From Hydrogenophaga sp. NFH-34 (GTDB lineage: Bacteria; Pseudomonadota; Gammaproteobacteria; Burkholderiales; Burkholderiaceae_C), in the NCBI RefSeq assembly GCF_021401345.1, contig NZ_JACBGE010000017.1, positions 1 through 64,000 of the forward strand: a stretch of DNA of 64,000 nt. Direction: 5' to 3'. Both the position numbers and the translations under genes were made by a program. Positions 108 to 12,412 of this stretch are shown piece by piece (position 1 is the first letter of the stretch; each line of letters starts with the position of its first letter). A model generated the notes under the pieces. The model was not told the origin of the DNA and ran no database searches. It was given only the letters and a program-made list of their open reading frames with translations.

Positions 108-1145
108 TCAACAGCCTGCTAGGGGCAGGTTGTCGCCGGCTTCGAACTTGTCGCGTGTCGCGAACTGCGGCAGCGCGGCCAAGCCGGAGGGCTCAACCAC
201 CGGGGCCACCGGCACGTCGTGCCGACTCAGCAGCTCGAACAGCGCGTCGGCGTCCCGGTCTTTCACGGCGTCGGCGATACGCTGGTTGATGGCCTGCGCA
301 TGGGGCTTGCGCCGCTTGAACGACCGGTACGCCTCACCATCGAACGGCGCCAGATCAATGGCCTCACAGAGACGTTGCCAGAAGTGGTCTTCCAGCGCCG
401 CGATAGAGAGGTGGCGGCCGTCGAGACAGGCGAACGCGCCATAGGCCGGCTTGACCAACGTCACTTCGCGCTGCGCTTCCAGCGTCTCCGCGCCGCCTTC
501 CCGGTAGGTGCCCAGACGCGGGTTCATCCAGTGCAGGGCGCAGTCGGCCAATGCCACGTCGAGGTGCTGACCGAGCCCCGTACTTTCCCGCTGGAACAAG
601 GCGGCCAGCGTGGACGACAGCGCATACATGGCACCACACAGGTCCGCCACCGGCAGACCCGCCCCCAGTGAGGGCGGACCGCCCGCTTCCCCCGATACGG
701 CCAGCACGCCAGCAGCCGCCAAATAGTTGATGTCGTGCCCGGGCAGGTGGGCCCAGGGGCCCGACTGCCCATAGCCGCTGAGCGAGACATAGATCAGGTG
801 CGGACAGTCGGCTTGCAGCGACGCGAAGTCCATCCCCAGACGCGCCATCACGCCCGGCCGGTATGACTCGACCAGGATGTCGGCGGACACCACCAGTTGA
901 CGCACCTGGGCACGCTGGGCCTCGTCCTTCATGTCGACCAGCAGGCTTTCCTTGCCCCGGTTGACCGCCGCAAATCCCCCCGCGCCCAGTCGGCGCGCAT
1001 TGTCGCCATGGGGCGGGCGCTCGATCTTGATGACGCGTGCGCCCATCTCGGCCAATGCCTGCGTGAAGAACGGGCCGGGCAGCAGTTCGCTGAAGTCGAC
1101 CACGGTGATGCCCGCCAGCGGCGGGCGCGTGGAAGGGCCCGTCAT
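108..1145 (-). CDS. CaiB/BaiF family protein, alpha-methylacyl-CoA racemase-like
   Basis: A 345-residue family III CoA-transferase/racemase fold. The ATG at 1145 overlaps the upstream ligase stop as ATGA, which fixes the start; the N terminus (MTGPSTRPPLAGITVVDF) is family-typical. The segment GHDINYLAAAG (His137), Asp168 in VADLCGA and Glu252 in ALEDHFW match the His, Asp and Glu positions used by alpha-methylacyl-CoA racemase. In true CoA-transferases the Asp alone carries the acyl-CoA anhydride. The protein is somewhat shorter than usual (360-400 residues). It is last in a leftward operon with an acyl-CoA dehydrogenase and an ADP-forming acyl-CoA ligase. Because a ligase is already present, racemising a 2-methyl-branched acyl-CoA is more plausible than CoA activation. 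The racemase call is inference; membership of the CaiB/BaiF superfamily is secure. Confidence 0.8.
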   Translation of the reverse strand: MTGPSTRPPLAGITVVDFSELLPGPFFTQALAEMGARVIKIERPPHGDNARRLGAGGFAAVNRGKESLLVDMKDEAQRAQVRQLVVSADILVESYRPGVMARLGMDFASLQADCPHLIYVSLSGYGQSGPWAHLPGHDINYLAAAGVLAVSGEAGGPPSLGAGLPVADLCGAMYALSSTLAALFQRESTGLGQHLDVALADCALHWMNPRLGTYREGGAETLEAQREVTLVKPAYGAFACLDGRHLSIAALEDHFWQRLCEAIDLAPFDGEAYRSFKRRKPHAQAINQRIADAVKDRDADALFELLSRHDVPVAPVVEPSGLAALPQFATRDKFEAGDNLPLAGC

Positions 1146-3307
1146 GCCGATGCCTTCTGTTCGGCGCGCTCGATGATGACGGCGTCGAGCGGCAAGGCCC
1201 CTTCGCCCTCGGCGCCCAGCCACACGGGGTTGAGATCCATCTCCTCGATGCGGTCGGCGTTCGCCACCACAAACGCCGAGACGCGAAGCAGCAGCGCTTC
1301 GAGCGCCTGGAGGTCGGCCCGTGGCCGACCGCGTGCGCCGTCGAGCAGCGGGAAGCAGCGCATCTCACGCACCATGGCCGCCGCATCTTCCGCACCGATC
1401 GGCAGCATGCGGCGCGTCACATCGCGCAGGATTTCCACGTAGATGCCGCCCATGCCGAAGGTCATCACATGACCGAACACCGGATCCCGGGTCACGCCGA
1501 TCATCAGCTCCACGCCGCCCTGGGGCGCCATCTTCTCGATGAGCAAGCCATCGATCGTGGCATCGGGGCGGTGGTGTGCCGCCGAGGCCATGATTTCCAC
1601 CCAGGCGACCGCCACCTGCTCGGCGGTTTTCAGCCCCACCTGCACGCCGCCGATGTCCGACTTGTGCACGATCTGTCCGCTGGCGATCTTGGCCACGACC
1701 GGGAAACCCATCGCTGCCGCCTGGGCCACGGCTTCTTCCTGAGTGCGGGCCAGTGCGTTGGGCAGCACCGCGATACCGGCCTCGCGCAACTGGCGCTTGC
1801 CTTCAAGTTCCGACACCGAGCGTGTGGCCGACGCGGGCGGCAGCACCGAGGTGAGCGTGACCGCAGACACGCCCGACTGGCTGCGCTTCCAGCGGCCATA
1901 CGCCACCCAGCGCCGCACCGCACTCAGGCCTTTGCCCACCGAACGCGGCGGCGCAAAACCATGTTCCACCAGCATGCGGTAGCCCTCGCCCATGCGATCG
2001 CTCATCCAGATCGGAACAATCGGGGTGGTGCAGTTCTTTTGCGCGGCAATGATGGTGCGCGCCATCTGGATGGTGGTCTCGCCGTAATCCAGGGTGATGG
2101 GCACGATCACGCAACCGAGGTGGGGGTCGCTGGCCACCGCGCCCAGCGTTTTCTCGATCAGCTGCGCATCGCTCAGCACCGCCGCCGTGGTGTCCACCGG
2201 GTTGTCGATCGCCGCGTAGTCGGGCAACAGCTCTTTCAGAAGCGCCCGCGTTTCGGGTGCGAAGGTGGCCAGCCGCAGGCCCCGCGTGCCCACCGCGTCG
2301 GCCGTCAGTGCGGCGGTGCCGCCCGACGAGGTGTAGATGCCGATGCCGTCCTCGGGGCCTGGCATGGCGCGCGCGAACAGCCAGGCCGTGTCGACCAGTT
2401 CGTCGATATCGTCCACTTCGATCACGCCGAACTGGCGGAACACCGCACTGTTCACCTCCGCCGAACCAGTCAGCGACGCGGTGTGCGACTGCGCCGCGCG
2501 CTGACCGTATTCGGACTTGCCCACCTTGAACGCGATCACCGGCTTGCCATTGGCCGCCGCCCGCTGGATGGCGGCGACGAACTTGGCGCCGTCCTTGATG
2601 CCTTCGAGCAAGGTGACGATGACCTTGATGTCCGGCGCGTCGGCCATGTAGTGAATGAAATCGGCCACCTGCAGGTCCACCTCGTTGCCGGTCGACGCCC
2701 ACAGTCCGATGCCGATGCCGCGGTCCATGGCCTGCATCACGTTGCGGCCCAGGCCGCCGCCCTGGGTGGCCAGACCGATCGGCCCCTTGATCAGGTCGTG
2801 CGGGAACGAGGGGGAGAAGGTCAGACCCAGGCGGTGGTTGACGTTGGTCAGTCCCGGGCAGTTCGGACCGTAGATCCGCATGCCGCCCGCGTCGGCGATG
2901 GCCTTGAGGCGCACCTGTGCTTGCTCGCCCTCTTCTCCAGCCTCGCCAAAGCCCGAGGTCAGCACCACGGCGAAGGGCACGCCCCGGCCGGCGCACTCCT
3001 CCGCCACGGCCAGCACGCCCGCCACCGGCACCACGATCACCGCAATGTCGGGTGTGACAGGCAAGGCGGCCACGCTGGGCCAGCATTTTTGCCCCCGGAT
3101 CTCGGTCTTGGTCGGGTTCACGAGAAAAATCTCGCCGTCGAACTCGGAGTGGTCCAGCAAGTTGCTCAGGGTACGCTCGCCAATGCTGTGAAGGCGATCG
3201 GAGGCGCCCACCAGAGCAATCGAGCGGGGGTGAATCAGCCGCGTCAAATCGGTCAACGTTGTCTCCAGAGGTCTTGTGTTTTGGGATGAGGCTGCGGTGC
3301 TCACCAT
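1142..3307 (-). CDS. ADP-forming acyl-CoA ligase (acetate--CoA ligase family)
   Basis: A 721-residue single-chain nucleoside-diphosphate-forming acyl-CoA synthetase. The N-terminal CoA-binding Rossmann domain starts near residue 23 (IHPRSIALVGASDR). Succinyl-CoA-synthetase-like domains follow, with the likely phospho-carrier His275 in QSHTASLTGSAEV. A C-terminal ATP-grasp domain begins near residue 505 (KRQLREAGIAVLP; VVAKIASGQIVHKSDIGGV). The enzyme would convert a carboxylate, CoA and ATP to acyl-CoA, ADP and phosphate in the cytoplasm. The ATG at 3307 overlaps the stop of the acyl-CoA dehydrogenase by one base (TGATG), and the stop overlaps the next gene by four, so the three genes look translationally coupled. 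It probably activates the acid brought in for this pathway. Substrate is not predictable; acetate, pimelate and branched or aromatic acids are all used by relatives. Confidence 0.88.
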   Translation of the reverse strand: MVSTAASSQNTRPLETTLTDLTRLIHPRSIALVGASDRLHSIGERTLSNLLDHSEFDGEIFLVNPTKTEIRGQKCWPSVAALPVTPDIAVIVVPVAGVLAVAEECAGRGVPFAVVLTSGFGEAGEEGEQAQVRLKAIADAGGMRIYGPNCPGLTNVNHRLGLTFSPSFPHDLIKGPIGLATQGGGLGRNVMQAMDRGIGIGLWASTGNEVDLQVADFIHYMADAPDIKVIVTLLEGIKDGAKFVAAIQRAAANGKPVIAFKVGKSEYGQRAAQSHTASLTGSAEVNSAVFRQFGVIEVDDIDELVDTAWLFARAMPGPEDGIGIYTSSGGTAALTADAVGTRGLRLATFAPETRALLKELLPDYAAIDNPVDTTAAVLSDAQLIEKTLGAVASDPHLGCVIVPITLDYGETTIQMARTIIAAQKNCTTPIVPIWMSDRMGEGYRMLVEHGFAPPRSVGKGLSAVRRWVAYGRWKRSQSGVSAVTLTSVLPPASATRSVSELEGKRQLREAGIAVLPNALARTQEEAVAQAAAMGFPVVAKIASGQIVHKSDIGGVQVGLKTAEQVAVAWVEIMASAAHHRPDATIDGLLIEKMAPQGGVELMIGVTRDPVFGHVMTFGMGGIYVEILRDVTRRMLPIGAEDAAAMVREMRCFPLLDGARGRPRADLQALEALLLRVSAFVVANADRIEEMDLNPVWLGAEGEGALPLDAVIIERAEQKASA

Positions 3308-4455
3308 CAGGCGATGGCTGACATGCCCAGAATCTCGCGGCCCACGATCAAGGTCTGCACCTCGGTCGTGCCTTCGGGGATCGTGCCGCCGCGCGTGTCC
3401 CGAAAAATGCGTTCGATGGGGTAGTCGGTTGCATAGCCCAGTCCGCCGTGCACCTGCAGGGCCATGCTGGCTACCTCGTGGGCGGCTTCGGTGGCGTACA
3501 GCTTGGCGATGGAAGCGGCCGTGCGGACGTCCTGCCCGGAGTCCAGCGCGGCGGCTGCGCGCAGGCCCAATGCCCGTGCAGCTTCCACGCGGACCGTCAT
3601 GTCCACGATGAGCTTCTGGATCAGTTGGAAGCTGCCAATGGGTCGACCGAATTGCGTGCGCGTGCGGGCGTGGTCGATGGACAGATCCAACGCGGCCTGG
3701 GCAGCACCCACCGCACCCATCGCGATATTCACCCGAGCGCCGTCCAGACCTTTCAACATCTTCTTCAGCGCCGAGCCCTCTTCGCCCAGCAGGTTTGCGC
3801 GCGGCACCTTGACGTTGTCGAAGTTGAGTTCGGCCGTGCCGGTGCTGCGCAGAACCATGGTATCGACCGCACGGATTTCATACGGCGAGACATCACGCTC
3901 GACCAGGAACGTGGACAGTTGGCCGTTGCAATCGGGGCTGAAGGTACGTGCCACCACGATACCGAAATCGCCAAAGACGCCGTTGGTGATCCAGAGCTTG
4001 CGGCCGTTGAGCACATAGTGGTCGCCCTGGAGGTCGGCCCGCGTCTGCACCTGGGCGATGTTGGAACCGGTGCCCGGTTCGCTGATGGCGTTGAACACGC
4101 GGCGCTCGGAAGCCATCAGGGGCTTGAGGAATCGCTCCTTCTGCTCCTCGTTCGCCTCGGCCGCCAGCTTGTGGATGGCGGCGTTGGTGATGTTGACCAT
4201 GGTCCGGAGCGACAGCCAGGTGTAGCCCGCCTCTTCCATCAGCATGGCCCAGTTCATGGCGTCCAGCTCCATGCCACCGAGCGACTCCGGCAAACGCCCG
4301 CCGATGTAGCCGAACGGGGTCAGCGCCTTGAGCAGCTCGAAGGGAAAGGTCTTGGCCTTGTCGTGTTCGGACACGAGGGGGGCGACTTCGCTCTTCATGA
4401 AGCGGCGGACACTGTCGCGCAACATCTCCTGGTCGGCATCGGCAACAAAATACAT
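3307..4455 (-). CDS. acyl-CoA dehydrogenase
   Basis: A 382-residue FAD enzyme of normal family length that introduces a 2,3-double bond into an acyl-CoA and passes electrons to electron-transfer flavoprotein. The order is an N-terminal helical domain, a middle beta domain (FNAISEPGTGSNIAQVQTRA; KLWITNG) and a C-terminal helical domain (ARTRTQFGRPIGSFQLIQ). The catalytic base is probably Glu361 in IPEGTTEVQ, the standard position. First gene of the leftward operon; the next gene overlaps its stop (TGATG). The IclR-type regulator gene lies just upstream, ending 46 bases away on the same strand, so this operon may be co-transcribed with it or have its own promoter in that gap. Chain-length or branch preference cannot be read from sequence. 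Confidence 0.9.
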   Translation of the reverse strand: MYFVADADQEMLRDSVRRFMKSEVAPLVSEHDKAKTFPFELLKALTPFGYIGGRLPESLGGMELDAMNWAMLMEEAGYTWLSLRTMVNITNAAIHKLAAEANEEQKERFLKPLMASERRVFNAISEPGTGSNIAQVQTRADLQGDHYVLNGRKLWITNGVFGDFGIVVARTFSPDCNGQLSTFLVERDVSPYEIRAVDTMVLRSTGTAELNFDNVKVPRANLLGEEGSALKKMLKGLDGARVNIAMGAVGAAQAALDLSIDHARTRTQFGRPIGSFQLIQKLIVDMTVRVEAARALGLRAAAALDSGQDVRTAASIAKLYATEAAHEVASMALQVHGGLGYATDYPIERIFRDTRGGTIPEGTTEVQTLIVGREILGMSAIA

Positions 4456-4501: not shown

Positions 4502-5311
4502 CTACGCCGGCCCGGTCACTTTTGCGGTGGCGGCGCGCCGCGCACCGGTGGCACGCGGCGGCGCCGCGCCGTCGCGCGCGTGGAACACGAGCGCCTGGAC
4601 GTCCTTGAGGGCTTGCAGACAAGCGTCCTTGTGGGCCAGCATGCGCTGGGTGGGACCGGCCACGGAGATGGCCAGCGGCTGATCGCCCACGTAGCCGGCC
4701 ACCGCCATGGCGGACAGGCCGTCAAAACCTTCGTTCTCGACCCAGCTCCAGCCCTGCGCCTTGGCCTGGGCGATCTGTGCTTCCAGCACGGCCAGGTCGG
4801 TGATGGTGCCGGGCGCGATCTGCTTCATCGTCTTCAGGCGCAGCTGGCGCGCCGCCTCTTCGGGGGTGCCGAGCGCGAGCTCCGCCTTGCCCAGCGCCGA
4901 GACGTGCAGCGCGATCTTGTTGCCCACGTTGGAAACGTAGCGCAGCGGATGCGTGCCTTCGGCAAACGCCAGCACATGCACCACCCCCGACACCACATGG
5001 CCACACAGACCGGTCTCGCCGGTCTTGTCGCGCAACAACTCGCAGGCTTCCGTGGCCACCGCGAACAGCGGATCGCTGGCCGAAATCTCCTGCGCAATGT
5101 CCAGCAGTCGCGCCGTGGGATAGAAGCGCTTGCTGCGCGCCGTGCGCAGCAGATAGCCCATCTCGTGCAGCGTGAAAAGCAGGTCTGAACAACTGCTTTC
5201 CGGTAGGTCCATAAGACGCGCCAGATCCGAGTTGGACAGCTCTCGGCGCTCACGGGCAAACACTTCAAGCAGCAGCATGGTGCGGGTGGCAGCAGGAACG
5301 ATGGTGGGCAT
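4502..5311 (-). CDS. IclR-family transcriptional regulator
   Basis: A 269-residue regulator with an N-terminal winged helix (about residues 5-65: TRTMLLLEVFARERRELSNS, then LARLMDLPESSCSDLLFTLH) and a C-terminal IclR effector domain (about 80-250, including HVSALGKAELA and WSWVENEGFDGLSAMA). The C-terminal tail is Ala/Arg/Pro-rich and looks disordered. The gene is divergent from the Bug receptor gene, with 188 AT-rich bases between them that carry repeated TCTACGA boxes. It is upstream of, and parallel to, the dehydrogenase-ligase-racemase operon. It most likely senses the pathway substrate or its CoA ester and controls both arms of the cluster; that role is inferred from position. Confidence 0.9.
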   Translation of the reverse strand: MPTIVPAATRTMLLLEVFARERRELSNSDLARLMDLPESSCSDLLFTLHEMGYLLRTARSKRFYPTARLLDIAQEISASDPLFAVATEACELLRDKTGETGLCGHVVSGVVHVLAFAEGTHPLRYVSNVGNKIALHVSALGKAELALGTPEEAARQLRLKTMKQIAPGTITDLAVLEAQIAQAKAQGWSWVENEGFDGLSAMAVAGYVGDQPLAISVAGPTQRMLAHKDACLQALKDVQALVFHARDGAAPPRATGARRAATAKVTGPA

Positions 5312-5499
5312 AGTTACTCCGAAATTTCGTAGATAAGCTCGAATAATAACGAAATGACTTCAGAAAACCGTCCGATAAAAGGCTGTTTTTTCCCTATTTT
5401 TTTCAATGAAAAACTCAAAATTCGATCTTGCCTTTCTACGATATTTTGAAGTATTCTACGACTAGTCACGATATTGTGGCAGAAAAAATGGAGACAACC
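5312..5499. promoter_or_regulatory. Divergent IclR / Bug control region with repeated boxes
   Basis: This 188-bp gap is far more AT-rich than its surroundings. A 10-bp perfect palindrome CGAAATTTCG sits at 5320-5329. The box TCTACGA occurs as TTCTACGA at 5434-5441 and 5454-5461 (20 bp apart, two helical turns) and inverted as TCGTAGA at 5327-5333. Such boxes are good candidates for IclR operators; binding is inferred. No convincing -35/-10 pair was assigned. Confidence 0.5.
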
Positions 5500-6480
5500 A
5501 TGCGAAACATTCTGAGGAAGCTGTCCGTTCTGGCGCTCGGGTCACTCGCCCTGTGCACCGCCCATGCGGCAGATGTTCAATGGCCAGAACGTCCGATCAA
5601 ATTCATCATTCCGTTCACCCCCGGTGGCGTGACCGACAACACAGCCCGGTTGCTGGCGACACTGCTCGAACCCCATCTGGGGCAACCCGTGATCGTGGAA
5701 AACCGCCCTGGTGCTGGTGGCTCGATTGGCGTGGAAGCCGCTGCCCGCCAGACTCCCGATGGCTACACGATGGTCTACGGCACGCAAGGCACTCAGGGCG
5801 CCAATCTCGCGCTGTACAAAAAAGTGGGGTATGACCCGATCGCCGATTTCGTGCCGGTGTATGGCGTGTCGGAGTCCCCCTTGGTACTGGTGATCAACCC
5901 CAACCGGCCATTCAAAACGGTCCCCGAACTGATCGCCTATGCCAAAGCCAACCCGGGCAAGCTCAACTACGGCTCGGCTGGCGCGGGCACGGGCACGCAC
6001 CTCACGGCAGAAATGTTCCAGATGGTGACCGGCACCAAGATGACGCACATCGCCTACAAAGGCAGCAGCCCAGCGCTGACCGATCTCATGGCCGGCAACG
6101 TCGATCTGATGTTCGATTACCCGGCCATCGTGCTGCCGCTGGTGAACGGCAAGAAACTCACCGCACTGGCGGTCACGGCCAACAAGCGGCTTGCCAGCGC
6201 CCCTGATGTACCGGTGATCAGCGAGTTTGGACTGACCGGCGCAGAGTCCAGCTCCTGGGGCGCCGTCTTCGTGCCTGCCAAGACCCCACCGGCCATCGTC
6301 AAGAAGCTGGCAGACGCCATCGAGAAGGCCATGGTCGACCCCCAGATGGTGAAGAACAACCAGAAGTACGGAAGCATCCCGATGACCGGCATGCGCGATC
6401 AAAAGCTGGGCGACTTCGTCAAGACGGAAATGGTGCGCTGGCGCGATCTGGTGCAGAAATCCGGCGCCTCGCTCGAATGA
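5500..6480 (+). CDS. Bug-family (TctC-like) periplasmic solute-binding protein
   Basis: A 326-residue receptor of the tripartite tricarboxylate transporter family, highly expanded in Burkholderiales. The ATG at 5500 is chosen because GGAGAC lies just upstream and it begins a signal peptide (MRNILRKLSVLALGSLALCT, cleavage near residue 23-24). The mature part has the family hallmarks WPERPIKFIIPFTPGGVTDN, VIVENRPGAGGSIG and GTGTHLTAEMF. It should bind a carboxylate in the periplasm. No TctA or TctB membrane gene lies nearby, so it must use a transporter encoded elsewhere or act as a sensor. It is divergent from the IclR gene and is first in the rightward operon. Ligand is unknown; the neighbours suggest the acid degraded by this cluster. 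Confidence 0.9.
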   Translation: MRNILRKLSVLALGSLALCTAHAADVQWPERPIKFIIPFTPGGVTDNTARLLATLLEPHLGQPVIVENRPGAGGSIGVEAAARQTPDGYTMVYGTQGTQGANLALYKKVGYDPIADFVPVYGVSESPLVLVINPNRPFKTVPELIAYAKANPGKLNYGSAGAGTGTHLTAEMFQMVTGTKMTHIAYKGSSPALTDLMAGNVDLMFDYPAIVLPLVNGKKLTALAVTANKRLASAPDVPVISEFGLTGAESSSWGAVFVPAKTPPAIVKKLADAIEKAMVDPQMVKNNQKYGSIPMTGMRDQKLGDFVKTEMVRWRDLVQKSGASLE

Positions 6481-6533: not shown

Positions 6534-6965
6534 ATGATCGACCAACTGACTTCCTTGAAGCCTCTGCACCCCACGCTCTACCAGCTGGCGTCGGACGGCA
6601 CCTCCCTCGACTTCATCTTCTCACAATGCCTGGTTTGCGGAACGGTCAACTTTCCGGCCAACGTCCCGGGCTGCTCGCACTGTGGGAACCCACTCACCGA
6701 GGCCCCCCGGCTGACCCGCCCTGGCCAAGGAGAGTTGCTGGAGTTCGTGACCATCCATGTGCCGCTGATACCGGACATGCAGGCGCCCGCGATCGCTGGC
6801 GATATCCGCATCGCAGACGGCATCGTTGAAGAAGGCGTGATCGGGGTCAAAGACGATTCTGGCTTGCGCACGGGCATGACCCTCAAAGCCATCGCAGAGG
6901 TGCGCGAAGCGCAGGGGGTCTATGCCTGCGTCTTTGTTCCGATGAATGAGGAGGTCGCGACATGA
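6534..6965 (+). CDS. DUF35 / OB-fold zinc-ribbon protein
   Basis: A 143-residue protein with a rubredoxin-like zinc ribbon (Cys32, Cys35, Cys47, Cys50 in CLVCG...CSHCG) followed by an OB-fold domain (GELLEFVTIHVPLIPDMQAP, then AIAGDIRIADGIVEEGVIGV). DUF35 proteins partner thiolase-superfamily enzymes, as in archaeal thiolase-HMG-CoA synthase complexes and in steroid side-chain aldolases. The next gene, overlapping by ATGA, is a thiolase-like protein, so a stoichiometric complex is likely. Start ATG 6534 is preferred. An in-frame ATG at 6477 overlaps the receptor stop but would translate through the hairpin at 6487-6504 into a Pro/Arg-rich stretch unlike the family. Confidence 0.85.
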   Translation: MIDQLTSLKPLHPTLYQLASDGTSLDFIFSQCLVCGTVNFPANVPGCSHCGNPLTEAPRLTRPGQGELLEFVTIHVPLIPDMQAPAIAGDIRIADGIVEEGVIGVKDDSGLRTGMTLKAIAEVREAQGVYACVFVPMNEEVAT

Positions 6966-8146
6966 GCACCGGTACCCAACAACGAGCCGCCACCTCCGCG
7001 AACTGGATCGACCAAAACGGTGGCATCTACGTGGTGGGCATCGGCATGCACGCCTACCAGTTCCCCACCGAAACACCCTACACCCAGCTGGGCCTGACCG
7101 CCGTGCGCGCCGCGCTGGTCGACGCCGGGCTGCGCTGGGACCAGGTTCAAAGTGCCTACGTCGGCACAGCCGCCATCGGCATGGCCACCGGGCGCGTGAT
7201 GCTCCGCCACCTGGGCTCGACCGGTCTGGCCGTGACGCAGGTCGAAAACGCTTCGGCTTCAGGGTCTTTCGCTTTTCGCCAGGCCTGCATGGAGATCGCC
7301 ACCGGCATGAGCGACGTGGTGCTCGCCGTCGGTGTGGACAAACACGGCGACGGTCGCCGCGCGGCCAACAAGAACGGGCTCGAAAGCCTGAGCGACACCG
7401 CCAACCTGCCTCCGGTCAAGTTCGCCATGATGGCGCGCACCTACCTGCGCGAGCGCGGCGCCAGCGTGGCAGAGATGGCTGCGGTGGCGGTCAAGAACCA
7501 TGGCAATGCCGCACTCAACCCCTTCGCCCAGTTTCGCAAGCCCCGCACGCTGGACCAGGTGCTCGCCTCGCCGCGCGTCGTCGGGGATCTCACGGTGCAG
7601 CAGTGCACCCCGCGTGGCGAAGGCGCCGCCGCCGTGCTGCTGGTCTCTGGCCACGCGCTCAAGCGCCTGGGCTTGGACGCTAAGCGCTGTGTCCGCGTAC
7701 ACGCCTCGGTAGCCGGCAGCGACCGCGAAGAAACCGGCTACGGCGATGCGGCCACGGAACTGGTGCGGTCCAGCGCCCAGGCTGCCTGCGAGCAGGCCGG
7801 CATCGCCCCGACCGAGCTGGACCTGCTCGAACTGCACGACGCTTTCTCCATCGAAGAACTGCTCTACACCGAGGCCATCGGCATCTGTGAACCCGGCGAA
7901 GGCGCGCGCTACCTGGCCCGTGGCGACTCCCAGATCGGCGGCCGTTGCGCCGTCAACGCCTCGGGCGGCCTGATCGGCATGGGCCACCCGCTCGGGCCGA
8001 CCGGCATTGGCCAGATCGCCGAGATCACCCGCCAGTTGCGCGGCGAAGCGTCCGGTCGCCAGCACCCCAATGCGCGCTGGGCCATGGCCCACATGATCGG
8101 TCTGGGGTCGGTGTCGATTGCCCATGTGCTATCGACTGCCCACTGA
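6962..8146 (+). CDS. Thiolase-like (SCPx/Ltp type) protein lacking the nucleophilic Cys, probable acyl-CoA aldolase
   Basis: A 394-residue thiolase-superfamily protein of the lipid-transfer/SCPx type. The active-site loop that normally reads like NNNCATGS reads VENASASGS here, placing Ser98 (codon 7253-7255) where the acylated Cys should be. The HDAF segment (in LLELHDAFSIEEL) and the C-terminal GMGHPLGPTG (His342) are retained. Loss of the Cys argues against thiolysis. Thiolase-like proteins paired with DUF35 partners catalyse retro-aldol cleavage of beta-hydroxyacyl-CoA in steroid and bile-acid side-chain degradation. The upstream DUF35 gene overlaps by ATGA, and an enoyl-CoA hydratase that could make the beta-hydroxyacyl-CoA follows. 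Retro-aldolase activity is inference; a non-catalytic or condensing role is possible. Confidence 0.8.
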   Translation: MSTGTQQRAATSANWIDQNGGIYVVGIGMHAYQFPTETPYTQLGLTAVRAALVDAGLRWDQVQSAYVGTAAIGMATGRVMLRHLGSTGLAVTQVENASASGSFAFRQACMEIATGMSDVVLAVGVDKHGDGRRAANKNGLESLSDTANLPPVKFAMMARTYLRERGASVAEMAAVAVKNHGNAALNPFAQFRKPRTLDQVLASPRVVGDLTVQQCTPRGEGAAAVLLVSGHALKRLGLDAKRCVRVHASVAGSDREETGYGDAATELVRSSAQAACEQAGIAPTELDLLELHDAFSIEELLYTEAIGICEPGEGARYLARGDSQIGGRCAVNASGGLIGMGHPLGPTGIGQIAEITRQLRGEASGRQHPNARWAMAHMIGLGSVSIAHVLSTAH

Positions 8147-8173: not shown

Positions 8174-8986
8174 ATGACCACCCAAAACCAGCCACAGGAC
8201 CTGGGCACGCTGCTGTACGAAGTGCGCGACCAGGTCGCCGTTATCACGCTCAACCGCCCCGAACGCATGAACACGCTGGGCGGCACGATGAAGGCCGACC
8301 TGGCTCGCGCCTTCTTCGAGCTCGCCCGCAGCGATGACCAGGTGCGCGCGGTGCTCATCACCGGCAGTGGTGACCGGGCGTTCTGCGCCGGCGCCGACAT
8401 CAAGGAGCGTGCAGGCGAAGTGGTTTGCGGCAGCGAGTACTTCGTTCGCCAGAAGGCCACCCACGACCTGTTCCGCAACATCGAAGAGTTCGAAAAGCCC
8501 GTGGTCGCCGCCATCAACGGCGTGGCGCTGGGCGGCGGGCTGGAAATCGCACTGTGCTGCGACATCCGGCTGGCCGCCTCGACCGCACGCTTCGGGCTGC
8601 CCGAAATCAAGCTGGGCGTGATTCCGGCCGCGGGTGGTACACAGCGTCTACCACGCGTGATCGGCGAAGCCCGGGCCAAGGAACTGATCTTCATGGCGGA
8701 CCTCATCGATGCCCATACCGCACTGGGCATGGGCCTGGTCAGCCGGGTTCTCCCCGGCGAAGAGCTGCTCCCTACCGCGATGGAGTGGGCAAAACGCCTC
8801 GCGCAGCACCCGCCCCTGGCGGTGCGCTTCGCCAAGCGCGCCATCAACCGCGGCATGCAGACCGATCTCGATTCCGGCCTGGAGTACGAGCGTTACGCCG
8901 CGTCGATGCTGGTGGACAGCGAAGACCGCATCGAAGGCATGCGCGCCTTTGTCGAAAAACGCGCACCGCGTTTCGTCGGTCGCTGA
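8174..8986 (+). CDS. enoyl-CoA hydratase/isomerase (crotonase family)
   Basis: A 270-residue crotonase with the oxyanion-hole segment AFCAGADIKE (residues 70-79), ALGGGLEIAL and LPEIKLGVIPAAGGTQRL. Both catalytic glutamates are present (Glu124 and Glu144, equivalent to Glu144/Glu164 of rat mitochondrial crotonase), so hydration of a 2-enoyl-CoA to a 3-hydroxyacyl-CoA is expected. An AGGAGAG ribosome-binding site lies just upstream of the ATG. It sits between the thiolase-like gene and an SDR gene and would act after the divergently encoded acyl-CoA dehydrogenase. The exact substrate is unknown. Confidence 0.9.
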   Translation: MTTQNQPQDLGTLLYEVRDQVAVITLNRPERMNTLGGTMKADLARAFFELARSDDQVRAVLITGSGDRAFCAGADIKERAGEVVCGSEYFVRQKATHDLFRNIEEFEKPVVAAINGVALGGGLEIALCCDIRLAASTARFGLPEIKLGVIPAAGGTQRLPRVIGEARAKELIFMADLIDAHTALGMGLVSRVLPGEELLPTAMEWAKRLAQHPPLAVRFAKRAINRGMQTDLDSGLEYERYAASMLVDSEDRIEGMRAFVEKRAPRFVGR

Positions 8987-9025: not shown

Positions 9026-9841
9026 ATGCAACTGGGATTGAACGGACAGATAGCCCTCGTCACGGGTGGCGGTCAAGGCGTGGGACGCAAGATCTGCCTG
9101 GAACTGGCCGCCGAAGGCGCCAAGGTCGTGGTCAACGACCTGTTTGAAGAGCGTGCCAACGCCGTAGCCAAAGAGATCGCCGCTGCGGGCGGCCAGGCGC
9201 TGGCGGCACCCGCCAACATCACCCAACTCGACGAAGTTGAAGCCATGGTCGCCCGCGCACGCGCTCACTTCTCGGCCCCAATTACCATCCTGGTGAACAA
9301 CGCCGGCATCATCCCCGAGCGCCGCGAAAAGGGTGGCCGCACGCCCCCCTTCCTGGAAACGCCGGTGGCCGACTGGACCAAGATCGTTGACCTCAACGTC
9401 TACGGCACCATGTATTGCTGCCGCGCAGTGCTGCCGGGCATGGTCGAGAAGAAGACCGGCCGCATCATCAACATCATTTCCGAGGCGGGGCGCATCGGTG
9501 AGGCCAACATGGCGGTGTATTCGGGCGCCAAGGCCGCCATCGGCGGTTTCGCCAAGGCTCTGGCGCGCGAGCATGGCCGCCATGCCATCACGGTGAACTC
9601 CGTTGCCTTGGGCGCGGTGTCGCACGAGGGCATCAAGGATGGACCACTCAACATCCATGCCACCGTGGACAACAACGAGCTGCTCAAGAAGATGCTCAAC
9701 GTCTACCCGATCTCCAAAGGAGTGGGCCGTCTCTCGCGTCCCGGTGACATCTCTGGCGTGGTGGCCTTTCTCGCTTCCGACCAAGCCCTGTTCATCACGG
9801 GTCAAACCGTGGGCGCATCGGGCGGCTTCGTGATGAATTGA
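9026..9841 (+). CDS. short-chain dehydrogenase/reductase (SDR)
   Basis: A 271-residue classical SDR. Visible are the nucleotide-binding TGGGQGVG (residues 13-20), Asp38 at the end of the second strand (VVNDLF, favouring NAD over NADP), NNAG (91-94), the catalytic Ser152 and the YSGAK motif (Tyr165, Lys169). It likely oxidises a hydroxyacyl-CoA or hydroxy acid, or processes the carbonyl product released by the aldolase candidate. It is the last gene of the rightward catabolic operon; an AAAGGA ribosome-binding site precedes the ATG. Downstream is a non-coding scar with a transposase remnant. Substrate cannot be assigned from sequence. Confidence 0.88.
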   Translation: MQLGLNGQIALVTGGGQGVGRKICLELAAEGAKVVVNDLFEERANAVAKEIAAAGGQALAAPANITQLDEVEAMVARARAHFSAPITILVNNAGIIPERREKGGRTPPFLETPVADWTKIVDLNVYGTMYCCRAVLPGMVEKKTGRIINIISEAGRIGEANMAVYSGAKAAIGGFAKALAREHGRHAITVNSVALGAVSHEGIKDGPLNIHATVDNNELLKKMLNVYPISKGVGRLSRPGDISGVVAFLASDQALFITGQTVGASGGFVMN

Positions 9842-9933
9842 GCAAACGGCGAGTGTGGTGCCAGGCGCAGCTCCCCGCACTCAGGGGTAGACGCAGGGTC
9901 CTACACTCGATCCCTGTCCCAATTCGCGTTGGA

Positions 9934-10152
9934 CATCCCTACAGCGATCAAGGCAGCCAGGACACCAGCCTGGCCCTTGGCGAACGTTGCCTGCAAATGC
10001 AGGATCGCCCATCCGCGGTGTGCGATGCCCACGACAACGCGATGGCCGAGAGCATTTTCGCCAGCCTGGAAGGCGAACTCATCGAGCGCAACTCTTTCCA
10101 AAGCAAGGCACAGGACCGCACGGTGGTATTCACCTGGATGGGAGACGGGTAA
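9934..10152 (+). pseudogene. IS3-family transposase (OrfB) C-terminal remnant
   Basis: In-frame codons give HPYSDQGSQDTSLALGERC, DNAMAESIFASLEGELIER and TVVFTW. These match the last third of an IS3-type integrase core, including its second Asp (YSDQGS) and the Glu (MAES). The N-terminal half with the first Asp, OrfA and both terminal inverted repeats are missing, so the element is dead. It lies immediately beyond the catabolic cluster and marks an old rearrangement. Boundaries are approximate. Confidence 0.75.
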
Positions 10153-10631: not shown

Positions 10632-10643
10632 TGGACGTTGTGG

Positions 10644-11020
10644 TGGTGGAGCTGGGGGGACTCGAACCCCCGTCCGCAAGCCTTCTTCGCGCAGTTCTAC
10701 ATGTGTAGTCGTCTGTTTTGAATCTCGCCGGTTGCGCCGCGCAGCGACACGCTACGCAACCCGCCAGTACCCTTGAGTCTCACCCCGCGCCAAGGTACCC
10801 GGCGCCGGGCCAGCCGATAAAAATTCCCTTGCAGCGAGGACAGCCTTGCGGCCACCCTTGCCCAGCCTATCGGCCTGCTGTTGCAAGGCTCGCCGGATTA
10901 AGCGGCGAGTGCGAAACGTTCGTCGTTTGCAGTTAGTTTTTTTCTGCGGTTTAACGAGGTGACAGAACCTCGACATGCCCTGCTGCGTGTCCGAACCCAC
11001 GTCGAAACCAATGCAGCCCC
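10644..11020 (-). ncRNA. ssrA: transfer-messenger RNA (tmRNA)
   Basis: A 377-nt one-piece tmRNA that rescues stalled ribosomes with SmpB. The 5' end GGGGCTGCATTGG pairs with the 3' end CAGCTCC followed by encoded ACCA, making the alanine-tRNA-like acceptor stem. The T arm reads GGGGGTTCGAGTCCCCC. The tag reading frame at 10930-10898 codes for ANDERFALAA and a TAA stop, the tag typical of Burkholderiales, so the full degradation tag is AANDERFALAA. Only 13 bases separate it from the gph stop, so its promoter lies at the end of gph. A strong terminator follows. ssrA 3' ends are common integration sites, and the adjacent scar is notable for that reason. Confidence 0.97.
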
Positions 11021-11030
11021 GGTACACCTG

Positions 11031-11057
11031 AGTTTAAGGCAATCCGAGCAATTTCAA
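11031..11057 (-). promoter_or_regulatory. Candidate ssrA promoter inside the gph 3' end
   Basis: On the minus strand, CTTGAA/TTGAAA near 11053-11058 and TAAACT at 11036-11031 are spaced about 16-17 bases. TAAACT includes the gph stop codon. The mature tmRNA 5' end is ten bases further, consistent with later RNase P trimming. Assigned by position; the match to consensus is moderate. Confidence 0.4.
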
Positions 11058-11708
11058 GAGGTCGGCCGGAGAATCGATGTGGGCATCGGCGCCCCAGTGG
11101 TCGACACGGCCTTCCACGCCCAGGTAACCGTAGCGGGCGGCCACGGTGTACATGCCGGCCTCGCGACCGGCCACGATGTCACGCTCGTCATCCCCGATGT
11201 ACAGGCAGGCAGCCGGTACCACCGCCAGCCGGCGGGCCGCCTCCAGCAGGGGTTCGGGATGGGGCTTGGCGTGTGGCGTGGTATCCCCGGAAATCACGGT
11301 GCCCGCCGCAGCCAGTTGAGGGAAACCGGCCACCAAGGGTGTGGTGAAGCGGTCGACCTTGTTGGTCACAATGCCCCAGGGCAAGCTGTGGCGGTGCAGC
11401 GCGGCGAGCAACAAATCCACCCCATCAAAGCAGTGTGTGGTGTCCAGCAGCCCTTGGGCATAGCTTGCCAGGAACTCCTGCTTCATCGCCTCGTAGACAG
11501 GCGCATCGGGGGTGATGCCAAAAGCAATGTCCAACATGCCGCGAGCGCCGGCACTGGCGTGCGGCCGGTAGCGGTCCAGGGGCAAAGGTGGCAGCCCACG
11601 GGCAGCGCGCATGCGCTCGGCAGCAAGCGCGAGATCGGGCGCGCTGTCGACCAGGGTGCCATCCAGATCGAACAGCACGGCGGCAATGGGGTTGGGAACG
11701 GGCCTCAT
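11034..11708 (-). CDS. gph: phosphoglycolate phosphatase (HAD family)
   Basis: A 224-residue HAD-superfamily phosphatase. Motif I is FDLDGTLVD (catalytic Asp near residue 14), motif II is the Thr in GIVTNK, motif III is the Lys in HAKPHPEP, and motif IV is GDDERD. The helical cap lies between motifs I and II. It would remove 2-phosphoglycolate formed during DNA repair or by RuBisCO. The start overlaps the ubiG stop as ATGA, so the pair is co-transcribed; this ubiG-gph pairing is common in proteobacteria. The ssrA gene follows after 13 bases. Other HAD substrates cannot be fully excluded. Confidence 0.88.
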
Positions 11709-12412
11709 GCCTTGCGCGTCGCCAACAGGTAGTTGACGCTGGTGTCGTTGCTGAGCCAGTAGCGCTGGGTCAAGGGGTTGTATTCCATGCCCCGGGTACG
11801 GAGGGCGTCAAGCCCGGCGTCGCGGCAGTAGGCGGCGAGTTCGCTGGGCCGGATCATGCGAGCGTACTCATGGGTGCCTTTGGGCAGCATCTTGAGCAGG
11901 TATTCGGCGCCCACAATGGCAAACAGAAAGGCCTTGGGGTTGCGATTGATGGTGGAGAAGAAAACCGATCCACCGGGCTTGACCAGCGTAGCGCAGGCGC
12001 GAACCACCGATGCCGGGTCGGGCACGTGCTCCAGCATCTCCATGCAGGTGACGACGTCGAAGCTGCCCGGCACCTCGGCCGCCAGGGCTTCGGCACTGAC
12101 TTCACGATACTGAATGCGGGGTGTTCCGGCCTCCAGTGCGTGCAGTTGGGCCACCTTGAGCGCTTTGGTGGACAGGTCGATTCCAGTCACGTCGGCACCG
12201 CGCCGCGCCATCGAATCGGCCAGGATACCGCCCCCACAGCCCACGTCCAGGACACGCTGGCCGGCCAAGGAAGCCTGGCTGTCGATCCAGTCGAGCCGCA
12301 ACGGGTTGATCTGGTGCAGGGGTTTGAATTCGCTTTCGGGGTCCCACCAGCGGTGGGCCAGATCGGAGAACTTGGCCAGTTCGGCCGGATCGGCATTGAT
12401 CGGAGCTGTCAT
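11705..12412 (-). CDS. ubiG: ubiquinone biosynthesis O-methyltransferase
   Basis: A 235-residue class I SAM-dependent methyltransferase responsible for both O-methylations in ubiquinone synthesis. The N terminus [20 protein letters not shown] and the SAM-binding loop [20 protein letters not shown] are characteristic, followed by [11 protein letters not shown] and [22 protein letters not shown] 12412 is used because it gives the standard N terminus; an upstream in-frame extension would run through the ompA terminator. The stop overlaps the gph start by four bases. Confidence 0.95.

Follow-up and report, generated by a model that had tools for sequence, protein, structure and literature searches.

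A serine-type thiolase homolog paired with a DUF35 protein in a putative beta-oxidation cassette of Hydrogenophaga sp. NFH-34

Thiolases are textbook cysteine enzymes. The bbs operons, which code for the benzoylsuccinyl-CoA thiolase BbsAB, also hold genes for an acyl-CoA dehydrogenase (ACAD), a hydratase, an SDR dehydrogenase and a CoA-transferase. We know of no DUF35 subunit in SCP2-thiolase or in DpsC, and of no member of the clade described below whose activity, substrate or structure is established. Excerpts of the literature describe several variations of the active site in this superfamily. The base of TcLtp2 is Tyr294 of the motif YDHF and its acid is Tyr344, while CtSal uses Tyr302 and Cys304 of YDCY and has a glycine at the nucleophile position (PMC12329534). 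In PhlC, Cys88 and His347 are the thiolase Cys and His, and the C88S variant is inactive (PMC6392133). The KAS III-like protein DpsC of daunorubicin priming features a natural serine, Ser118, in a thiolase fold and is said to self-acylate (PMC12664062).

The window analysed here is a stretch of 64,000 nucleotides of Hydrogenophaga sp. NFH-34 (contig NZ_JACBGE010000017.1, positions 1 to 64,000). Judged from its sequence, the protein P0001 that it codes (Table 1) appears to be a member of a coherent serine variant of DUF35-linked thiolases found in several bacterial phyla. No description of a natural serine clade of DUF35 thiolases was found in the portions of the open-licence PMC literature consulted.

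Table 1. Features of the locus and their positions in the window
Feature	Position	Strand	Remarks
CaiB-type (family III) CoA-transferase	108..1145	-	
NDP-forming acyl-CoA synthetase	1142..3256	-	
Acyl-CoA dehydrogenase (ACAD)	3307..4455	-	
IclR-family regulator	4502..5311	-	
TctC-type (Bug) solute-binding protein	5476..6480	+	Start at 5428 possible
DUF35 subunit, 143 aa	6534..6965	+	Zn ribbon and OB fold; could also start earlier, at 6477
Ser-type thiolase-superfamily protein P0001	6962..8146	+	394 aa, intact ORF
Ser98, codon TCG, nucleophile position	7253..7255	+	Ser in 95/95 rows
His292 of HDAF	7835..7837	+	His in 95/95 rows; Tyr in Ltp2/Sal
His342 of GHP	7985..7987	+	Would pair with Ser98 as in thiolases
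Pro346 of GPTG	7997..7999	+	Clade-diagnostic; Ala in 29/30 Cys rows
Met378	8093..8095	+	Clade-diagnostic; aligned with the presumed second catalytic Cys of classical thiolases
Enoyl-CoA hydratase (ECH)	8174..8986	+	Both catalytic Glu present, E124 and E144
SDR dehydrogenase	9026..9841	+	Ser-Tyr-Lys as S152, Y165, K169; candidate 3-hydroxyacyl-CoA dehydrogenase
Short ORF	9838..10152	+	No Pfam match
ssrA (tmRNA)	10644..11020	-	

The serine position and its conservation

P0001 has the fold of the thiolase superfamily: Thiolase_N and Thiolase_C are both over their Pfam cut-offs, the AlphaFold model has a mean pLDDT of 89.5, and 1000 of the 1000 chains passed by Foldseek have a Z of at least 8 against this model. 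Its active-site loop reads VENASASGS with Ser98 inside. The original prediction that this serine stands where thiolases carry the acylated cysteine is borne out by phmmer alignments, in which a Cys faces Ser98 in BbsB (7pxp), zebrafish SCP2-thiolase (6hsj, 6hrv) and Pyrococcus thiolase (7yvy); the acylated Cys (CxS) of the catalytic Cys thiolases is thus replaced in P0001. The clade lacks the second catalytic Cys, which is that of CxG or, in SCP2-type enzymes, of HDC; it has Met378 and Ala294 instead, at positions that we partly assume, and the Met378 column is taken to be that of the CxG cysteine of classical thiolases. The C-terminal catalytic His region had also been predicted to be kept, and His342 of GHP is indeed present, as is His292 of HDAF.

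Serine fills the Ser98 column in all rows with at least 49% identity: 95 rows with 86 distinct sequences, made up of the scan loci, additional whole-genome matches, the window and copies of the latter. His342 is found in 94 of these rows, with one gap. It is the serine, and not the Ltp-type tyrosines, that is conserved in close homologs, since every row has His and not Tyr at the 292 column. The 30 more distant rows, at no more than 38% identity, all have Cys facing Ser98; they represent at most 29 proteins because L002 and L003 are one ORF. L102, a deeper row at 39% identity, also has Ser. The contig scan confirmed 90 places, of which the best 80 (49–85% identity) were kept; Ser is present in 80/80, and alignment A1 holds 67 of these 80 loci and the window. 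The Ser codons, read in 94 of the 95 Ser rows and in L102, are TCN with a single AGC exception.

A phylum sample of 299 genomes had a match at 1e-70 in 23 of them, and 30 of the 34 matches were read: the five with at least 593 bits (window included) and L102 (336 bits) carry Ser, and the other 24 carry Cys. In an Actinomadura-centred sample of 296 genomes, with 15 of 17 matches read, the three matches above 580 bits have Ser and the other 12 (34–42% identity) have Cys. Plasmids gave 19 matches, five of them read; Ser is present in 5/5 fetched from the seven with at least 54% identity, and the other twelve matches have less than 40% identity.

An assembly or sequencing error as the source of the serine was rejected because Ser is conserved in homologs. 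A relocated nucleophile was rejected as well: the one Cys that all clade members share is C215, in a LQC(C/T)P stretch, and 16 of the 30 Cys rows have a Cys there too. No other Cys was seen at the nucleophile position within the clade.

The Ser clade can be told from the Cys rows at 18 positions, S98, D126, P150, E298, Y302, P346, M378 and H388 among them; L102 shares ten of the 18, including the eight just named. A quick tree was built from 100 of the 126 rows, leaving out near-copies and short rows and removing columns 98, 346 and 378. In this tree 70 Ser rows fall into a single clade (SH-aLRT 99), and one change between Ser and Cys is needed. L102 itself sits on a long branch and is joined to the Ser clade with a support of 65, so that a single origin of the serine covering L102 as well is only possible. 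For L102/L144 (genome G572), two ACAD matches lie within 19.9 kb; no DUF35, ECH or SDR match was found among the ORFs of at least 90 aa in the 19.9 kb of L102.

The record titles of the clade name Pseudomonadota, Actinomycetota, Acidobacteriota, Chloroflexota, Binatota and Myxococcota. Its distribution is patchy: a match at E 1e-80 is present in 8/399 genomes of the window's family, its own included, and a Ser-thiolase ortholog (81–100% identity) in 2/67 genomes of the genus, again with its own, 5/67 passing 1e-60. Note that L028, from a MAG labelled Desulfovibrionaceae, has about 80% identity to the window's Ser-thiolase and is nested among Comamonadaceae on the tree; it is therefore probably a misbinned contig or a recent transfer.

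DUF35 partner, gene neighborhood and genomic setting

The ATGA overlap with a DUF35 gene, from which a partnership had been proposed, is confirmed at 6962/6965, where the thiolase ATG overlaps the TGA of the DUF35 ORF. In the DUF35 protein, zf-ChsH2 is over its Pfam cut-off (26.5 vs 23.2) and OB_ChsH2_C is under it (22.5 vs 27.1; E 1e-4). The best fold matches of its model (pLDDT 94.5) are BbsA, then ChsH2, the Shy DUF35 protein and PhlB; the zf-ChsH2 score and these matches identify the Zn ribbon and the OB fold. By a six-frame profile search, 80/81 loci, window included, have a DUF35-like ORF directly upstream of the thiolase. The sole locus without one, L060, has just 143 upstream bases in its sequence. 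A called DUF35 gene occupies this place in 59/80 loci, 42 of the 59 pairs having the same 4-base overlap as the window, and the six-frame search added 20 further DUF35-like ORFs, each just upstream of the thiolase. The DUF35 protein and the Ser-thiolase presumably form a heteromer. The DUF35 sequences are variable (alignment A2 holds 38 of the 59 called genes and the window), with ribbon cysteines missing in Roseomonadaceae and L071. The partners in L051, L053, L054 and L071 lack Zn-ribbon cysteines yet are still paired with the Ser-thiolase.

The loci were divided into 34 near loci (the window, L018–L048, L058 and L090) and 47 far loci, 29 of which have five genes on each side. The order CaiB, NDP-forming synthetase, ACAD and IclR (all on the minus strand) followed by TctC, DUF35, Ser-thiolase, ECH and SDR (plus strand) is found in 28/34 near loci. 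ECH and SDR both lie within five genes of the thiolase in 31/34 near loci, 19/47 far loci and 16/29 full-flank far loci; six of the latter 29 have neither, and just four have an ACAD within that distance. An ALDH gene is found within five genes in 5/47 far loci, with an SDR also present in each. ECH genes are enriched next to the thiolase (52 of 448 genes within three positions vs 3 of 373 at the outer positions of the same loci). The two catalytic Glu are kept in 52/53 and 48/53 of the nearest ECHs, the catalytic Ser and Tyr in 59/59 SDRs and their Lys in 58/59, and the catalytic Glu in 34/38 ACADs. A second thiolase-like ORF was detected by motif in 4/81 loci, six or more genes away; profile labels add one each in L049 and L075, at seven genes, and another in L081 at five genes.

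The farther relatives have as extra neighbors AMP-forming ligases, NMO-type or LLM flavoproteins and TetR regulators. Of the 33 near loci other than the window, 26 have a gene for an NMO-type flavoprotein beside CaiB; its place in the window would be beyond the contig start. The best NCBIfam names of the window's SDR, CaiB and synthetase and of the L045 NMO-type protein are all below cut-off, and for this reason no substrate is claimed. By its gene content the cassette reads as a full set for beta-oxidation that has no second obvious thiolase, and among the genes that can be named the Ser protein would be the evident candidate for C-C cleavage.

A compact Ser-thiolase module is present on a 19.9-kb mobilizable plasmid of Comamonas sp. 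C11 (NZ_CP101748.1, L139). It codes for IclR, a DUF35-like protein, the Ser-thiolase, ECH, SDR, a flavin reductase, TctC and an AMP-ligase; ACAD is not among the annotated genes of the plasmid. This module is possibly a mobile catabolic unit. An IS5 transposase and toxin-antitoxin genes are also carried by the plasmid. In plasmid annotations the Ser-thiolase is a 'thiolase family protein' and its partner a 'hypothetical protein', a 'zinc ribbon' or an 'OB-fold' protein.

In the window, about 800 bases lie between the end of the cassette and the 3' end of ssrA; past ssrA come the housekeeping genes gyrA, a class-V aminotransferase gene and pheA-, tyrA- and aroA-cmk-like genes. The stretch on the ssrA side (10640–11720) has a match, at least partial, in 13/13 genomes of the genus, the own one included, compared with the 2/67 that have the Ser-thiolase ortholog, and a genomic island at ssrA is thus possible. 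A search of the assembly for another copy of the ssrA end gave none. The short ORF listed in Table 1 ends in DNAMAESIFASLEGELIER, which we take to resemble the tail of an IS3-type transposase; it is possibly a remnant of the element that brought the cassette.

Proposed reaction and its alternatives

The gene neighborhood suggests that P0001 makes the final C-C cut in the breakdown of an acid. Tentatively, and with nearly an even chance of being right, we favor the reading that the DUF35-thiolase heteromer, with Ser98 replacing Cys, carries out the retro-Claisen cleavage that closes a dedicated beta-oxidation cassette. The acid would be activated by CaiB and/or the NDP-forming synthetase, and the acyl-CoA would then be dehydrogenated by the ACAD, hydrated by the ECH and oxidised to 3-ketoacyl-CoA by the SDR. 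Ser98, made reactive by His342 and by the fold's helix/oxyanion-hole arrangement, would attack the 3-keto carbon to yield an acyl-Ser ester and an acyl-CoA enolate, the acyl group passing afterwards to CoA or water. We infer the acyl-Ser intermediate, the retro-Claisen chemistry and this order of steps from a set of arguments. Retro-Claisen cleavage is favored because the SDR would supply 3-ketoacyl-CoA and because the thiolase His, and not the aldolase Tyr, is kept; the absence of the Ltp2/Sal tyrosines, taken with a beta-oxidation set that has no other evident thiolase, makes it the likeliest role. Since the thiolase Cys and His of PhlC are Cys88 and His347, these correspond to Ser98 and His342, and the inactivity of the Cys88Ser variant implies that the loss of Cys must have been compensated here, perhaps by clade-specific residues. 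The DpsC precedent indicates that acylation of a serine is feasible in a thiolase fold. Several observations count against this reading: the inactivity of the PhlC variant, Thr347 where DpsC would have its acid partner, the full-flank far loci that have neither ECH nor SDR (6/29), the small number of them with an ACAD within five genes (4/29), and the deep Ser row L102 with its lack of DUF35, ECH and SDR matches. The ALDH genes of the five far loci, each of which also has an SDR, would suit an aldehyde product.

A bolder version, to which we give a rather modest chance, is that the clade consists of Ser-dependent 'retro-Claisen hydrolases' spread over several phyla, in which the acyl-Ser formed from 3-ketoacyl-CoA is released by water and not by CoA. 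The presence of both CaiB and the synthetase would fit a free-acid product, and is also ordinary. Such chemistry is otherwise known from unrelated hydrolases.

The original prediction was of a non-thiolytic reaction such as retro-aldol cleavage, by analogy with Ltp2-ChsH2. Its general part is supported, as the natural Ser, the kept His, the DUF35 partnership and the inactivity of the PhlC Cys-to-Ser variant point to a departure from ordinary Cys thiolysis; its specific part is not supported. A retro-aldol lyase would split the 3-hydroxyacyl-CoA produced by the ECH into an aldehyde or ketone and an acyl-CoA with no covalent intermediate, Ser98 and His acting as acid/base or hydrogen-bond donors and an ALDH or SDR handling the carbonyl product. 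Two known aldolases are found among the DUF35-thiolase heteromers with non-Cys nucleophile positions, according to an excerpt of PMC12329534, and the loci bearing ALDH keep this reading alive: the gene is directly upstream of DUF35 in L069, L077 and L079, and Fe-ADH and ALDH are found near the Roseomonas mucosa plasmid copy and in L045. However, no locus has an ALDH without an SDR within five genes, and the joint occurrence of ECH and SDR (31/34 near and 16/29 full-flank far loci) makes the gene set favor retro-Claisen cleavage. The tyrosine of Ltp2 and Sal is His292 here, the GHP His is kept, and Ser and not Gly occupies the nucleophile column; in both sequence and fold, P0001 resembles BbsB and SCP2-thiolase more closely than the two aldolases. 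Retro-aldol cleavage is thus unlikely.

The heteromer could also work in the synthetic direction, as a DpsC- or PhlABC-like acyltransferase or condensing enzyme that passes an acyl group via Ser98 to another acceptor. Excerpts of the literature offer precedents for the Ser in the thiolase fold of DpsC (PMC12664062) and for a DUF35-type partner in PhlABC (PMC6392133). This role is quite improbable in a neighborhood of catabolic appearance, with genes for an ACAD, a hydratase, CoA activation, IclR and a Bug receptor, and the Pfam scan of window genes gave no acyl-carrier-protein family among those it covered. Alternatively, Ser98 would not be a nucleophile and the enolate site of His342 and His292 would serve another CoA-ester reaction, for instance decarboxylation or proton transfer. 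Both histidines are conserved, while Ala294 and Met378 occupy the two places where a second Cys might stand; TbSLP of the same superfamily decarboxylates malonyl-CoA, though very slowly, as an excerpt of PMC12329534 has it. The strict conservation of the serine nevertheless suggests a role for its hydroxyl, because an idle residue would be expected to drift to Gly or Ala, and this alternative is distinctly improbable. Pseudo-enzymes do arise through loss of the nucleophile, and P0001 might then be catalytically idle, serving the DUF35 protein or the hydratase as a partner or scaffold; with both His and the surrounding motifs kept across several phyla, and a nearby second thiolase being the exception, such a role is very improbable.

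If retro-Claisen cleavage by Ser98 holds, a strictly conserved natural Ser clade with a DUF35 neighbor would show that the thiolase scaffold supports Ser catalysis in catabolism. The Ser-thiolase would also serve as a marker for an unannotated degradation pathway.

Comparison with known systems

The top fold score of the P0001 model is with SCP2-thiolase type 1 (6hrv, 6hsj; Z 53.9, 364 residues, 1.7 A, 33% identity), followed by BbsB (Z 51.6) and, lower, Ltp2 (Z 42.4) and Sal (Z 41.0); all have the same fold, so that this order measures likeness and not function. SCP2-thiolase differs by its Cys nucleophile and by HDCF in the aligned chain. By their titles, engineered Cys-to-Ser variants are present among the solved structures matched by fold.

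Ltp2-ChsH2 (6ok1) and Sal-Shy (9myr) resemble the window's pair in their thiolase fold, DUF35 partner, non-Cys nucleophile position and a hydratase in the pathway, but they use Tyr catalysis in YDxF/Y; the catalytic Tyr of YDHF/YDCY is absent from P0001, which has a His of the thiolase type at both tyrosine positions. The 6/6 Ltp2-like loci, six of 11 NF005892 loci from two Actinobacterial genomes, have Gly facing Ser98 and Tyr facing His292 and have lost GHP; their Ltp2-like identity is deduced from the YDxF/Y motif, just L130 being over the family cut-off. Membership of P0001 in the Ltp-type aldolases was rejected on residues, all three positions differing (Ser/His/His vs Gly/Tyr/no GHP).

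The PhlABC Friedel-Crafts acylase (5m3k) also combines a thiolase-type protein, PhlC, with a DUF35-type one, PhlB, but uses Cys88 and has a third subunit, PhlA. DpsC differs in its ACP-dependent biosynthesis and its Ser-His-Asp triad, whose acid partner presumably maps five residues after its His, onto Thr347 of P0001. The latter has the Ser and the GHP His of such a triad and, five residues past His342, this Thr and no acid. An excerpt of another source describes the DpsC active site otherwise, as Ser-His-His (PMC9573744).

BbsB (7pxp, 7pyt) is the best PDB sequence match of P0001 (E 3e-64). Like P0001, it is encoded with a DUF35-type small subunit, BbsA, whose fold is the one closest to the window's DUF35 model, and HDAF and GHP are kept in both large subunits. 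The differences are the Cys of BbsB at the Ser98 column and its GASG where the window has GPTG; P0001 scores 236 bits with the BbsB equivalog NF053628, below the cut-off of 750. By this comparison P0001 would work most like the benzoylsuccinyl-CoA thiolase BbsAB, yet with a serine in place of its cysteine.
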